Made by a program: the position numbers and the translations under genes
Notes under the pieces: model-generated
Seen by the model: only the letters and a program-made list of their open reading frames with translations
What the model was told of the DNA's origin: nothing
Database searches by the model: none
Assembly (NCBI RefSeq): GCF_002305895.1
Contig: NZ_CP022203.1
Coordinates: 4,690,501-4,754,500 of the forward strand
Reading direction: 5' to 3'
DNA length: 64,000 nucleotides
DNA from: Corallococcus macrosporus DSM 14697
Lineage (GTDB): Bacteria; Myxococcota; Myxococcia; Myxococcales; Myxococcaceae
Part shown: in pieces, positions 7,809 through 49,746 of the stretch
Numbering within the stretch: the stretch's first letter is position 1
Layout: the number at the start of each line of letters is the position of its first letter

Positions 7809-8176
7809 AGGACTTCCTCACCGCGGTGATGCTGGTCTCCGGGGCGCTGCTGATGCTCCTGGCCGGGCTGGGCCTGTTCCGCATGCCGGATCTGTTCCTG
7901 CGCCTCCAGTCCGCCGCGAAGGCCTCGTCGTTGGGCGTGGGCCTGCTGATGGGCGCGGCCGCGCTGGGGCTGGGCGACCTCAGCGTGGTGGCCCGGGCGG
8001 TGCTGGCCATCGCCTTCGTGTTCGTCATGACGCCGGTGGCCGCGCTGCTCATCGCCCAGGCCGCCTTCCGCGCCGGCCTGCCCCTGTGGGAGCGCACGCA
8101 CCAGAACGACCTGGAGGAACACCACCCCGCCGGCGGCCCCTACGAGCCCCGGCTGGGGCCCGACGGCGAGGACTGA
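7805..8176 (+). CDS. mrpG: Mrp antiporter subunit G
   Basis: 123 residues, three helices. MrpG/MnhG signature: GLGLFRMPDLFLRLQSAAKA followed by S-S-L-G-V-G, then VARAVLAIAFVFVMTPVAAL. The start overlaps the mrpF stop (ATGA). A hydrophilic tail of about 25 residues, rich in His, Asp, Glu and Pro, ends the operon. No terminator is obvious just downstream. Confidence 0.9.
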   Translation: MKDFLTAVMLVSGALLMLLAGLGLFRMPDLFLRLQSAAKASSLGVGLLMGAAALGLGDLSVVARAVLAIAFVFVMTPVAALLIAQAAFRAGLPLWERTHQNDLEEHHPAGGPYEPRLGPDGED

Positions 8177-37920: not shown

Positions 37921-38121
37921 CGCGGAGGACTGCGGGGGGTGATGACGCCGGTCACCACTCCGCCAACGGCTGTCACCAGCGCCGCGGGCCTTCGCTCGGG
38001 GGGACGGGCTCGCGCACCCTGTAAATCCAGGGGGTTGGCGCTCACGCCCGACCACCTCCGCGTTGGCACACGCCCTGCTCATGGGCCAGGCATCCCCACG
38101 CTTCCTTCAAGGACCTATCCC

Positions 38122-38913
38122 ATGGCGATCTCCTCCCTGTCGCGCCCGTCCTCCACCGCTTGCACGAAGCGCGCTTCCGAAGCCGCGCAGACGTCACAGA
38201 GTGTCGTGGTGAAGGTCGTCAACCCGGACGGCACGACGGTGAAGACGGTGGACTCCGCGAAGCAGCCCCAGGAGTTCGCCGACCTGTTGAAGAAGATGGG
38301 CCTGACGAAGGAGGGCCTCCTGAAGGGAGAGGGCGCGAAGGGCGCGTGTCCGAAGCCCGCCGAGTCGCGCTTCCAGCAGAACTGGCGCGCCGACAGCTTC
38401 GAGCCGTCCAAGCCCCAGGGCCAGAAGCCGCGGCCCACGCCGGCGCCCACCCAGGCGCAGCCCACGCCAACGCCCGCCAAGGCGCAGCCTGCGCCCGCCA
38501 CGGCGCAGGCCGAGAAGGGCTCTCCCTCGGGCAAGAGCGCGGACGCGGTGGCCCAGGACATCGCGAAGCAGGCCACGGAGTGGACGTATGACTACACGGG
38601 CGGCAAGGCGTGGGACGCCGCCATGAAGAACGCCGGCACCTTCGACAAGACGCAGGCGGGCGTCTGCGTGGACATGGCCATCGAGGCCGAGCAGCGCTTC
38701 GAGAAGGCCGGCGTGGACGCGCGCGTCGTCTTCGGAAAGACGGGCCGGGGCGACCACGCGTGGGTGGAGTTCAAGGACGACCAGGGCAAGTACCAGGCCT
38801 TCGACCCCACCGCCGCGGCGTGCACCAAGAAGGCCGATGACGCCATCACCCCGTACGACAACAACCTCTACAACTACGGGAGCATCTTCCAGACCCACCA
38901 GGCCGTGCCCTGA
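38122..38913 (+). CDS. Transglutaminase-like fold protein with Pro/Ala-rich linker
   Basis: 263 residues. No signal peptide. Residues 1-90 form a small helical region (QTSQSVVVKVVNPDGTTVKT). Residues about 95-140 are a Pro/Ala/Lys/Thr-rich linker with PTPAPTQAQPTPTPAKAQ, and the C-terminal domain has a papain/transglutaminase-like triad: Cys182 (AGVCVDMA), His212 (GDHAWVEF) and Asp228 (AFDPTAA). An enzyme or protein cross-linker/protease is likely, with the substrate unknown. AAGGA lies eight bases before ATG 38122. The serine-rich N-terminus and linker resemble secreted or injected proteins, but that is inference. Confidence 0.7.
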   Translation: MAISSLSRPSSTACTKRASEAAQTSQSVVVKVVNPDGTTVKTVDSAKQPQEFADLLKKMGLTKEGLLKGEGAKGACPKPAESRFQQNWRADSFEPSKPQGQKPRPTPAPTQAQPTPTPAKAQPAPATAQAEKGSPSGKSADAVAQDIAKQATEWTYDYTGGKAWDAAMKNAGTFDKTQAGVCVDMAIEAEQRFEKAGVDARVVFGKTGRGDHAWVEFKDDQGKYQAFDPTAAACTKKADDAITPYDNNLYNYGSIFQTHQAVP

Positions 38914-46125: not shown

Positions 46126-46451
46126 CGCGCCTTCCCCCATGGGTGTGAAGAACGCGGGTGAATATGGGCAGCCACCGATGTGAAGGCGACAGCCCTGCTG
46201 GCCTTGAGGTGGCGGCCGTGCGAGCAGCCGCCTCCACGCCGGTGTTGCTCAGCGGCGTCAACGCCTTACGAAACGAGCGGCGCCTCTCGCGATCTGGACT
46301 GGAGCAGGGTTTGCGTGAGCCCGCCCAGAGCGGAAGCATCCTCTGCCTTCGGCCGTTTGTGTCTGCCTGACAGCAATGGCATGATAGCCGTCCTGGCGGC
46401 GTCCGAGTCGCCCGGTGTTGGGCGCCTCCCACCAGGCAAGAGGAGATGGTG
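46126..46451. other. Upstream region of the small peptide gene
   Basis: 326 bases, no convincing gene. A weak sigma-70-like pair, TTGTGT (46357-46362) and CATGAT (46380-46385), 17 bases apart, lies about 65 bases before the peptide start. Part of the region is also the 5' side of the divergent dehydrogenase gene. Confidence 0.3.
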
Positions 46452-46598
46452 ATGACCCAATCGTCCAAGTCGAAGAAGCTCCAGGCGCAGCTCAAGGCAC
46501 TCGACAACGCACTGCCTGCCCCCGCCGTGTCCGTCCCCGGAGCGCCCGTGGCGCCGAAGATCGACGAGGGCAACGATAGGTACGGCGGCTATCCCTGA
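46452..46598 (+). CDS. 48-residue peptide, possible RiPP precursor
   Basis: ATG 46452 to TGA 46598, with AGGAG six bases before the start. Residues 1-20 form a Lys/Gln/Leu-rich, helix-like leader (MTQSSKSKKLQAQLKALDNA). Residues 21-35 are Pro/Ala/Val-rich, and the tail (36-48) is polar and aromatic, ending DRYGGYP. No signal peptide and no cysteine. It is followed within 54 bases by a terminator and then an asparagine-synthetase-like amide synthetase gene, an order typical of precursor peptides. Gly30 and Asp38 could in principle form a nine-residue macrolactam ring, but no leader peptidase or recognition-element protein is visible nearby. No family recognised. Confidence 0.6.
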   Translation: MTQSSKSKKLQAQLKALDNALPAPAVSVPGAPVAPKIDEGNDRYGGYP

Positions 46599-46651
46599 CC
46601 CCATCGCTCGCTCGCGATGCTGCACGCTGACCTTGCGTTCGACGATCTTGC

Positions 46652-46683
46652 AGCCCCCCTTGGCCTCGTCGAGGGGGGCTTTT
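46652..46683 (+). terminator. Intrinsic terminator/attenuator between peptide and synthetase genes
   Basis: AGCCCCCC (46652-46659) pairs perfectly with GGGGGGCT (46673-46680) across a 13-base loop, followed by TTT at 46681-46683. The orientation is plus-strand. A terminator here would leave high expression of the peptide gene and low read-through into the synthetase gene. Confidence 0.8.
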
Positions 46684-46721
46684 CCATCGGCCAATCACAG
46701 GTCAGGCTCGTGCAGCACCGG

Positions 46722-48179
46722 ATGCTGCGTGCCGTGCTCCTGGAGGGCGCGGATCGGATCGTCGCCATTGTCCTGGAGCGCTTCGCAGACGATCCGGAAG
46801 GGCTCGAGCATGTCGTCGATGCCACGGATGGCCAGATCCAGACACATCTCGACGACCTTGAAGACTACCCGCTCGATTTCGCCGCGTTGACCATCGACCG
46901 CAGGCGACGGGCAATCCGCTACACGGCGTCGCCGACGATATCAATCCCAGTCTATTGCCTCGCGACGGCGGGCCGCGCTCGCTTCGATTGGGACTACGCC
47001 CGCCTGCTCGGAAGCGGCCCCCACGAAATCGTATGGGATTACGCGCTCGCCCAGATTGCCGGCGTCTCCACCTACGGCCCGGCGACGGTTGTGTCGGGGC
47101 TCTATCGCGCCACGTCAGGGGCCACGCTGGTGGTCACCACGGCGGGAGTGGATGCCATTCTGCCGGAGCCCGTGCGTCACGACGGTCCACGCGAGTTGCC
47201 CCCAGGTGTCGATGCCGAGGCGTTGTTCCGCGAGACGGTGATTTCGATCCTCGACGCGCGCCCCCTTGACCCGCGGCGAACCGCGGTGGAGCTGAGCGGC
47301 GGCATGGACTCGGCGCTTACCGGCCTCGCCACGGCGCACGTGACTGGCGAAGGCGCGATGAGTCTGGGCGCGCAATTCGACGGCGCGATGGGGGAAGCGC
47401 AACGCGCGCGCCGCCTGCTGTTGTGCCGAGCTGGCGGCTTCGCCGACCTTTCCGTGCCGGCCGGGCGCTATGCCCCCTTCTCCCCGCGGAGCCTCCGGCG
47501 ACGCCGCCATCAGGTGTGGCCCGAAGATGAGAACTACCCGGAGATCTTTGAAGCCGCATTTCACATGCTGCGCGCCGCGGGGATTGACACGCTCGTCTCG
47601 GGCTTCGGTGGGGACGAGCTCTATTTCGCCTATCAAGGCGAGGCCGGGGAGGATGGCGTCGCGGCCGAGCCGCCGCCGTGCACGTTCCTCACCGCCCGAG
47701 GCCTGGCGACCGCGCTCAGCGCGCGCAGCACGTATCCGTCAGCCTGGTTGCAGCAGACCTGTTGGCAAAGCGCCGCGAGCCAATCGCAGCGGGTGCTGCG
47801 GTACGGCCTATGGCCAGTCTATCCCTATCTGAACGTCGCCCTGGCGCGCTTTGTCTCACGCCTGCCCGCGGCATTCCGGCGCGACCGCCGCATCCTGCGA
47901 CGGACGCTGACCCGGTGGCTGGGCAATCCAGTGTTCGAGACGGCGTACGTCAAGGAGAGCTTTGACCCGGTGGCGCGACGCGGCATCGCCGAAAACCGCG
48001 CCTGGCTGCAAGCGCTCGTCAGACACTCTCCGCTATCGCGCCACGCCGAGATCGACACCGCGGCGATCCTCGCGGCGCTCGACAGCGACATCGACCGCCT
48101 CGACCGGGCCCGCTACAACGCGCTGTTCCGGTTCCTCAAAATCGCCTGCTTCTTCCAGTCCGACCGCCCTCTCAACTGA
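46722..48179 (+). CDS. Asparagine-synthetase-like ATP-dependent amide synthetase
   Basis: About 485 residues. The synthetase domain has the PP-loop SGGMDS at 192-197 (VELSGGMDSALTGLATAH) and GFGGDELYFAY at 294. The N-terminal part (about 1-170) has the Ntn-like fold pattern but lacks the Cys that begins true glutamine-dependent asparagine synthetases, as in lasso-peptide cyclases and beta-lactam synthetases. Such enzymes adenylate a carboxylate and let an amine attack it. Starts: ATG 46722, or GTG 46710, or ATG 46617, which would place the terminator inside the gene. Gap of 88 bases to the monooxygenase gene. Confidence 0.75.
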   Translation: MLRAVLLEGADRIVAIVLERFADDPEGLEHVVDATDGQIQTHLDDLEDYPLDFAALTIDRRRRAIRYTASPTISIPVYCLATAGRARFDWDYARLLGSGPHEIVWDYALAQIAGVSTYGPATVVSGLYRATSGATLVVTTAGVDAILPEPVRHDGPRELPPGVDAEALFRETVISILDARPLDPRRTAVELSGGMDSALTGLATAHVTGEGAMSLGAQFDGAMGEAQRARRLLLCRAGGFADLSVPAGRYAPFSPRSLRRRRHQVWPEDENYPEIFEAAFHMLRAAGIDTLVSGFGGDELYFAYQGEAGEDGVAAEPPPCTFLTARGLATALSARSTYPSAWLQQTCWQSAASQSQRVLRYGLWPVYPYLNVALARFVSRLPAAFRRDRRILRRTLTRWLGNPVFETAYVKESFDPVARRGIAENRAWLQALVRHSPLSRHAEIDTAAILAALDSDIDRLDRARYNALFRFLKIACFFQSDRPLN

Positions 48180-48267
48180 GCAAATGCCAGACCCCGGGTA
48201 TTGCCGCAAGCCCCCCGGGTCATGCTCCACCATCGGCCGTTTTGAACCAGAGCCGGAGGGCCGAGAA

Positions 48268-49746
48268 ATGCACGCGGACGTGGAGACTCAGCACGCAGTG
48301 GTGATTGCTGGTGGGGGGCCGACCGGGCTGATGCTGGCGGCGGAGCTGGCGTTGGCGCGGGTGGACGTGGCCATCATCGAGCGGCGCTCAAGTCAGGAGG
48401 TCTCCGGCTCACGCGCGCGCGGCCTGCACGCGCGCAGCCTGGAGGTGCTCGATCAACGCGGGGTCGTCGAGCGCTTCACCTCGCAAGGGCAAGCGGTCCA
48501 GAACGTCGCGTTCGGTCAGGCGCCTCTGGACCTCAGCGACTTCCCGACGCGTCACAACCACGGGCTCGCGCTCTTGCAAGAGCGCTTCGAGCGCATCCTG
48601 GCGGGTTGGGTGGGCGAGCTGGCGGTGCCCATCTACCGGGGATGCGAGGTGACGGGCTTCGCGCAGGACGACACCGGCGTCGACGTCGAGCTGTCCGACG
48701 GCCGTGCGCTGCGGGCGAAGTACCTCGTCGGGTGCGACGGAGGTCGCAGCCTCGTCCGCAAGGCGGCAGGCATTGACTTTCCGGGGTGGGACGCGTCGAT
48801 CAGCTACCTCATCGCCGAGGTCGAGATGACTGGAGCGCCGGCGTTCGGCATCCGCCGGGACGAGAAGGGCACCTACGCCATGGGCAAGCTGGAGGACGGA
48901 CGCGTGGGCGTCGTCCTGAGGGAGGAGCGTGTCGTCACGGGCGACGCGCCGACCCTGGAGGGGCTGCGCGAGGGACTCGTCGCGCTTTACGGGACGGACT
49001 ATGGCCTGCGCGGCGCCACGCACCTCTCGAGGTTCACCGACATGACACGGCAGGCGGCGTCCTACCGCGAGCGCCGGGTGCTCCTGGCCGGCGACGCGGC
49101 CCACGTGCACTCGCCCATGGGCGGACAGGGGCTCAACCTCGGCGTGCAGGACGCCGTGAACCTGGGGTGGAAGCTGGCACAGGTCGTGCGCGGCGTCTCG
49201 CCGGAGAACCTGCTGGACACGTACCAGACCGAGCGGCACCCCGTCGCGGCCCGGGCGTTGCGGACGACCATGGCGCAGACAGCGCTGAGCCGCGGTGACG
49301 CGCGGATGGACGCCGTGCGCGAGACGCTGACGGAGCTGCTGCGGATGGACGGACCACGCAAGACGTACGCGGCGCTGCTGTCGGGGCTGGACGTCCACTA
49401 CGACCTGGGACAGGGACACCCGCTGCTCGGGCGCCGCGTGCCGGACCTCGACCTGGTCACCGCCGACGGCCCCCGGCGCGTGTTCCACCTGCTGCACGAC
49501 GCGCGGCCGGTGCTGCTCAACCTGGGCGAGCCCGGCGCGCTCGACATCATCCCCTGGGCGGACCGGGTTCGGAGCGTCGCTGCCCGCTACAGCGGAGCGT
49601 GGCAGCTCCCCGTGCTCGGCGCGGTCACACCGCCCGTCGCGGTGCTGATTCGGCCGGATGGACACGTCGCATGGGTCGGAGAGGGCACGGACCAGGGGCT
49701 GCATGAGGCCCTGCGCCGCTGGTTCGGGCCGCCTCGTGCGACGTAA
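48268..49746 (+). CDS. FAD-dependent monooxygenase (PheA/TfdB, rifampicin-type)
   Basis: 492 residues. N-terminal dinucleotide motif GGGPTGLMLAAELALARVDV, the D-G motif YLVGCDGGRSLVRKAAG, and the FAD-binding G-D motif RRVLLAGDAAHVHSPMGGQG. The C-terminal thioredoxin-like domain (from about 390) is typical of two-component-independent phenol hydroxylase relatives. It uses NAD(P)H and O2 to hydroxylate an aromatic or polyketide. GGAGG lies eight bases before ATG 48268. It may belong to the peptide/amide-synthetase transcript, in which case it could tailor the product, but it could also be an independent resistance or catabolic enzyme. Confidence 0.85.
   Translation: MHADVETQHAVVIAGGGPTGLMLAAELALARVDVAIIERRSSQEVSGSRARGLHARSLEVLDQRGVVERFTSQGQAVQNVAFGQAPLDLSDFPTRHNHGLALLQERFERILAGWVGELAVPIYRGCEVTGFAQDDTGVDVELSDGRALRAKYLVGCDGGRSLVRKAAGIDFPGWDASISYLIAEVEMTGAPAFGIRRDEKGTYAMGKLEDGRVGVVLREERVVTGDAPTLEGLREGLVALYGTDYGLRGATHLSRFTDMTRQAASYRERRVLLAGDAAHVHSPMGGQGLNLGVQDAVNLGWKLAQVVRGVSPENLLDTYQTERHPVAARALRTTMAQTALSRGDARMDAVRETLTELLRMDGPRKTYAALLSGLDVHYDLGQGHPLLGRRVPDLDLVTADGPRRVFHLLHDARPVLLNLGEPGALDIIPWADRVRSVAARYSGAWQLPVLGAVTPPVAVLIRPDGHVAWVGEGTDQGLHEALRRWFGPPRAT

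Follow-up and report, generated by a model that had tools for sequence, protein, structure and literature searches.

This report concerns a cassette of two genes, about 1.9 kb long, found in a 64,000-nucleotide stretch (hereafter, the window) of the 8.97 Mb chromosome of Corallococcus macrosporus DSM 14697 (genome G000). Its first gene encodes a 48-residue peptide and its second a stand-alone amide synthetase of the asparagine-synthetase (AS) family. We consider it rather probable that this is a cassette for a ribosomally synthesized and post-translationally modified peptide (RiPP), in which the synthetase would form, in an ATP-dependent manner, a predicted isopeptide macrolactam between the side chains of Lys36 and Asp42. 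The support comes from a conserved, co-occurring gene pair, the loss of the glutaminase cysteine with the adenylation motifs kept, the Lys-x5-Asp/Glu spacing and a distinct synthetase clade. The RiPP family is likely an undescribed one.

Results

The relevant features of the window are as follows.

46258..48179, + strand: inserted two-gene cassette, approximate extent (boundaries of DNA homology with other genomes)
46452..46598, + strand: putative precursor peptide gene, 48 aa (leader about 1-21, middle 22-34, core 35-48, PKIDEGNDRYGGYP)
46557..46577, + strand: codons for Lys36-x5-Asp42, the predicted isopeptide pair
46617..48179, + strand: stand-alone AS-family amide synthetase, 520 aa (PF00733; motifs SGGMDS and GFGGDE)
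46652..46680, + strand: terminator-like hairpin in codons 12-22 of the synthetase gene (three compensatory changes relative to Sphingomonas; folding energies)
48268-49746: flavin adenine dinucleotide (FAD) monooxygenase, after the synthetase gene

The open reading frame (ORF) of the peptide (MTQSSKSKKLQAQLKALDNALPAPAVSVPGAPVAPKIDEGNDRYGGYP) is preceded by a purine-rich ribosome site, AAGAGGAG, and the synthetase gene starts 18 bases past its stop codon. The peptide consists of a Lys/Gln-rich leader, a variable middle and a conserved C-terminal core; the leader and the core are common to the four Myxococcaceae orthologues. The ratio of nonsynonymous to synonymous substitution rates in the six orthologue pairs is 0.35, 0.79, 0.39, 0.40, 0.34 and 0.28, i.e., below 1 in all of them and at most 0.40 in five. 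The ORF is under selection and is a genuine gene, as the first-pass annotation of this DNA had proposed from the letters and the good ribosome site.

Lys36 and Asp42 are invariant in Myxococcaceae; positions 38 and 41 vary. The same Lys-x5-Asp spacing is present in 10 of the 12 peptide families, and Lys-x5-Asp/Glu in 11 of the 12, in peptides that are otherwise very different. The cores are listed below with the Lys/acid pair in capitals.

Myxococcaceae: pKinegdDrfggyp, pKidegnDryggyp (acid at +6 invariant)
Xanthomonas: mKpylgdDsrwystqpgg
Mesorhizobium: pKvrlpgDsatlmyyl
Bradyrhizobium: pKgpfpsDsanegyl
Rhizobium, beside acyl-homoserine-lactone (AHL) synthase: iKggkpgDmdkldv
Rhizobium Vaf-108: iKfqlsgDsnrlry
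Streptomyces NBC_00376 and F12: dKpagteDqgyrden, dKaaetsDqgrfed
Streptomyces NBC_00334: dKmpgggDnngdhcsk
Alphaproteobacterium G805: aKingplEgngrfy
Sphingomonas paralogue: gKgtagqDaqrrrn (twice), sKrisgtDaqrrhs (once)

The precursor of the Sphingomonas sp. QA11 paralogue (L022 1167-1463) contains three repeated cores, GKGTAGQDAQRRRN, SKRISGTDAQRRHS and GKGTAGQDAQRRRN, each with Lys-x5-Asp, and a Gly/Asp-rich spacer between the first two. Among the family representatives, the runner-up Lys-Asp separation reaches only 5 families, against 10 of 12 at separation 6. With shuffled peptides, the chance of at least 10 families having Lys-Asp at separation 6 is 4e-6 for this pair alone. Because the Lys-Asp pair had been noticed before it was tested, the scan was then widened to every residue pair at spacings 1-15; Lys-Asp at 6 came out first (familywise P 0.019), and the scan limited to Lys/acid pairs in either order gives P 0.0007. 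The core acid is as conserved as the lysine and often stands in a G-D-S or G-D-D context.

The AS-family enzymes (AsnB, beta-lactam synthetase, lasso C proteins) adenylate a carboxylate and transfer the acyl group to an amine. The window synthetase matches PF00733 with 26.3 bits (cut-off 21) and matches none of the NCBIfam models. The intact SGGMDS loop and the missing N-terminal cysteine, both pointed out at first pass, were found as described: the protein starts with MLHAD and thus lacks the glutaminase Cys2, and the lysine of the KESF motif is kept. None of the 19 members compared has the N-terminal cysteine: those with an N-terminus carry Leu, Phe, Ile or Lys at position 2, and the others lack this end of the protein. 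The SGGxDS pyrophosphate loop and the GxGGD motif are invariant in all 19; QxxRR and G-x-W are further invariant positions. The closest solved relative of the 19-member profile is beta-lactam synthetase 1jgt (E 6e-11). In the maximum-likelihood tree, a 100/100 branch separates 20 members from the AsnB-type proteins and from three Sphingomonas lasso-type cyclases, so that, by sequence, the synthetases are a single clade with full support, distinct from both.

Homologues of the synthetase were found in M. dinghuensis, Sphingomonas sp. QA11 (with a paralogue), two more Myxococcaceae and alphaproteobacterium G805, and on plasmids of Xanthomonas sacchari, Mesorhizobium, Aminobacter, Bradyrhizobium, Rhizobium and Streptomyces; the plasmid records retrieved were largely alike whichever family member served as query. 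The two-gene unit is thus carried by scattered soil and plant-associated bacteria. According to the peptide profile search, the peptide and the intact synthetase occur together in the same 2 of the 61 Myxococcota genomes, and the peptide in none of the other 59. One Myxococcus genome (G011; L003, G011:C24) has a decayed copy: of the synthetase it retains a C-terminal stretch of about 213 residues, and the peptide is missing. Genomes of the Sphingomonas lineage were surveyed at the level of family, phylum and class (199, 398 and 385 genomes), with only a few candidates scored in each genome, so that members may have been missed; this added one new peptide family. No relatives were found in viral contigs and phages. 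A short ORF lies immediately 5' of the synthetase gene in all 24 loci read (a few of the calls are tentative), and many of these ORFs are annotated as hypothetical proteins. The pairing would have been doubtful if the short ORF were not kept beside the synthetase homologues; it is kept beside every one examined.

The boundaries of the cassette follow from DNA homology. The DNA common to the window and M. dinghuensis on the alcohol dehydrogenase side stops at 46257; that common to the window and the mostly cassette-less Myxococcus genomes on the monooxygenase side starts at 48164-48179, i.e., at the end of the synthetase gene. The FAD monooxygenase is present in 20 of the 25 Myxococcus genomes, and the intact synthetase in 2 of the 25 (with a fragment in a third). 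In M. dinghuensis, 2.5 kb separate the cassette from the monooxygenase; there is no monooxygenase at the Sphingomonas cassette, and in G318 the gene next to the cassette is MarR/GNAT-like. Because the homology boundaries flank the two genes and the monooxygenase linkage varies among genomes, the unit is the two genes only. The possible RiPP locus outlined at first pass also included the monooxygenase. Its RiPP-like pair of peptide and stand-alone amide synthetase is retained, the intact pair being present or absent together in Myxococcota. The monooxygenase gene is where it was placed; as a tailoring enzyme it is rejected, since by the genome counts and homology boundaries it is a common Myxococcus gene and a chance neighbour.

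The terminator that had been placed between the two genes is in fact a hairpin inside the synthetase gene. It is GC-rich, is followed by T-rich DNA, and occupies codons 12-22 in both Myxococcaceae and Sphingomonas (L006, approximately 8036-8064), with three base pairs changed on both sides between Myxococcaceae and the Sphingomonas homologue. A strict consensus terminator scan did not call the window hairpin and found no consensus terminator between the two genes; in one locus from Bradyrhizobium, a strong hairpin does lie between them. We treat the conservation as suggestive, since the changes come from only a single independent lineage and fall in coding sequence. The hairpin is perhaps an attenuator or a partial terminator, and the peptide may be made in excess over the synthetase.

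Discussion

We infer from sequence how the synthetase acts on the peptide, which bond is formed, what the leader does and how the product is released. The product of the short ORF would be the precursor of a RiPP, bound by the synthetase probably through the leader, as no separate recognition protein is encoded. The synthetase would adenylate the side-chain carboxylate of Asp42 with ATP; the amine of Lys36, six residues upstream, would then attack it, closing a macrolactam of seven residues through a Lys-Asp isopeptide bond (-18.011 Da). Trimming and export would be left to host factors. Since the nucleophile in this scheme is a lysine side chain and no new N-terminus is required, a leader protease would not be needed before cyclization, which would account for the absence of the lasso B1 and B2 proteins from the cassette. 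An intramolecular Lys-Asp amide is the simplest reading because there is no glutaminase and the lysine is at a fixed spacing from the acid.

Several points weigh against this proposal. The spacing rule was spotted by eye and tested on the same set, and when every residue pair is considered its familywise P is only 0.019. The only family found later, G805, fits the rule through Glu rather than Asp, and Sphingomonas L006 is an exception with Lys-x6-Asp. The 39-aa precursor ORF chosen in Streptomyces NBC_00334 differs from the annotated one (i.e., it is unannotated), and the precursor start codons are uncertain in G805 and in the Sphingomonas paralogue. On the side of the enzyme, the position of the catalytic-dyad Tyr of beta-lactam synthetase is mostly Phe, Ile, Val, Thr or Ser, with Tyr in three members; the KESF lysine is replaced by Arg or lost in some members; and the AlphaFold model of the synthetase (three sequences) had a predicted local distance difference test score of 40 and was not used.

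The proposed chemistry has relatives. Beta-lactam and carbapenam synthetases (1jgt, 1q15) share with the cassette synthetases the enzyme family, the degenerate glutaminase domain and ATP-dependent intramolecular amide formation, but their substrates are small molecules and the dyad Tyr is mostly not kept here. AsnB differs in its N-terminal catalytic Cys2, absent in all 19 cassette synthetases compared. Graspetides (omega-ester/amide peptides such as microviridins) resemble the predicted product in the Lys to Asp/Glu lactam on an uncleaved precursor; there the enzyme is an ATP-grasp ligase, whereas the only enzyme of the cassette belongs to PF00733. TsrC, ScdTA and PesC likewise are AS-family enzymes acting on a ribosomal peptide, but their target is the C-terminal carboxylate, and PesC takes glutamine or ammonia after oxygenase modification (PMC13060819).

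In an alternative reading, the lysine is not the partner. The synthetase could activate the core Asp and pass it to free ammonia (Asp to Asn) or to an outside amine, or form an aspartimide. The acid is indeed as conserved as the lysine, often within G-D-S or G-D-D, and amides are what AS-family enzymes form, one of them with free ammonia on a RiPP (PMC13060819). We regard this as unlikely, considering that no member with a full N-terminus has the glutaminase Cys and that a lysine kept at a fixed spacing would be left unexplained. Modification of the C-terminal carboxylate (amide, nitrile or conjugation) as with TsrC, ScdTA and PesC has known AS-like precedents among RiPP enzymes (PMC13060819) and would agree with C-terminal residues that are fairly conserved inside families. 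It is highly unlikely, since the ends vary between families (GGYP, SGG, PGG, LDV, RY, DEN), and since PesC works with glutamine or ammonia and depends on an oxygenase as its partner (PMC13060819), and the present synthetases lack the glutaminase Cys. Equally improbable in our opinion is a small-molecule synthetase outside RiPP biosynthesis, with the short ORF either encoding a leader peptide that serves regulation or arising by chance: the hairpin just 3' of the peptide looks like an attenuator, and the nearest solved enzymes make beta-lactams from small molecules, but selection on the peptide, the retained C-terminal core, a Lys-x5-Asp rule that holds across phyla and the repeated cores in one precursor are difficult to reconcile with it.

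We give even less credence to a lasso-type product (N-terminal amine to Asp/Glu), with the leader protease and recognition proteins acting in trans. Lasso C proteins do belong to the AS superfamily, adjoin a short precursor and are likewise associated with an amide (isopeptide) to an Asp/Glu side chain, and the cassette synthetases show weak matches to the lasso-cyclase models (NF033535, NF033561). These matches are of 25-36 bits against cut-offs of 300 and 525, and the clade is separate from the three Sphingomonas lasso-type cyclases; the amine there is a freed N-terminus, and here a lysine is predicted. As noted at first pass, B1 and B2 are absent from the locus, and none was seen in the two-gene cassettes (no genome-wide search for B1/RRE proteins was made); the window genome has one Transglut_core3 (B2) match, of 23 bits and under cut-off. 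The Sphingomonas genome has Transglut_core3 matches above cut-off, one at a separate lasso locus and none at the cassettes. The nine-residue Gly30-Asp38 ring suggested earlier is rejected: Asp38 is Asn in three of the four Myxococcaceae orthologues, so that the lasso pattern of a cleavable leader, then a conserved start of the core and an Asp/Glu at its position 7-9, was not found, and other families contain no such ring. The lasso reading of the cassette is not supported, and the predicted ring is instead Lys36-Asp42. The clusters of lariocidin and triculamin were also weighed as unusual lasso systems; that of lariocidin has B1/B2 proteins. The Sphingomonas genome with the cassettes also has a canonical-looking lasso locus with precursor, B and C genes (L046 6164-8788), which provides an internal contrast.

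A search of the literature, covering few subscription papers, revealed no description of the cassette family. About 300 uncharacterised RiPP-linked AS-like enzymes were counted in a 2026 preprint (PMC13060819); for some of them, Lys-x5-Asp offers a concrete, testable rule. There is about an even chance that the cassettes, spread over Myxococcota, Alpha- and Gammaproteobacteria and Actinomycetota and frequently carried by rhizobial plasmids, represent an undescribed RiPP class. In it, a lone AS-like enzyme would form Lys-x5-Asp side-chain lactams on an uncleaved precursor, sometimes on several repeated cores. The predicted tie of Lys to Asp by such an enzyme would be an undescribed route to a cyclic peptide natural product. 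If true, the AS family would gain side-chain lactam formation on ribosomal peptides; among RiPPs it has so far been credited with lasso rings and with C-terminal amides and nitriles. Protease-free cyclization from two genes would be handy for peptide engineering.

Genomic neighbourhoods

On several Rhizobium plasmids (L035, L036, L043, L038, L045), the cassette directly follows the AHL synthase gene, often near rhiA; in L038 and L045 it adjoins nifH. This setting beside AHL synthase and nitrogenase genes makes a role in symbiotic signalling or competition worth testing. In the pRL10 copy (strain 3841) the synthetase is annotated shorter. Another rhizobial subfamily (L008, L037, L042, L047, L039) has an APH-type phosphotransferase, often GNAT and sometimes an ABC transporter around the cassette; the fuller order in some copies is ABC transporter, peptide, synthetase, APH-type phosphotransferase, GNAT, which suggests export plus tailoring or self-protection.

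The Xanthomonas sacchari cassette (L007 2450-8875) is flanked by an oligopeptide:H+ symporter and an S9 peptidase; the latter has weak C-terminal similarity to the peptidase beside the Sphingomonas lasso locus. In the window itself, a transglutaminase-like stretch, AGVCVDMAIEAEQRF...GRGDHAWVEF...YQAFDPTAA, is encoded at approximately 38119-38913 (+ strand), 8 kb off the cassette.

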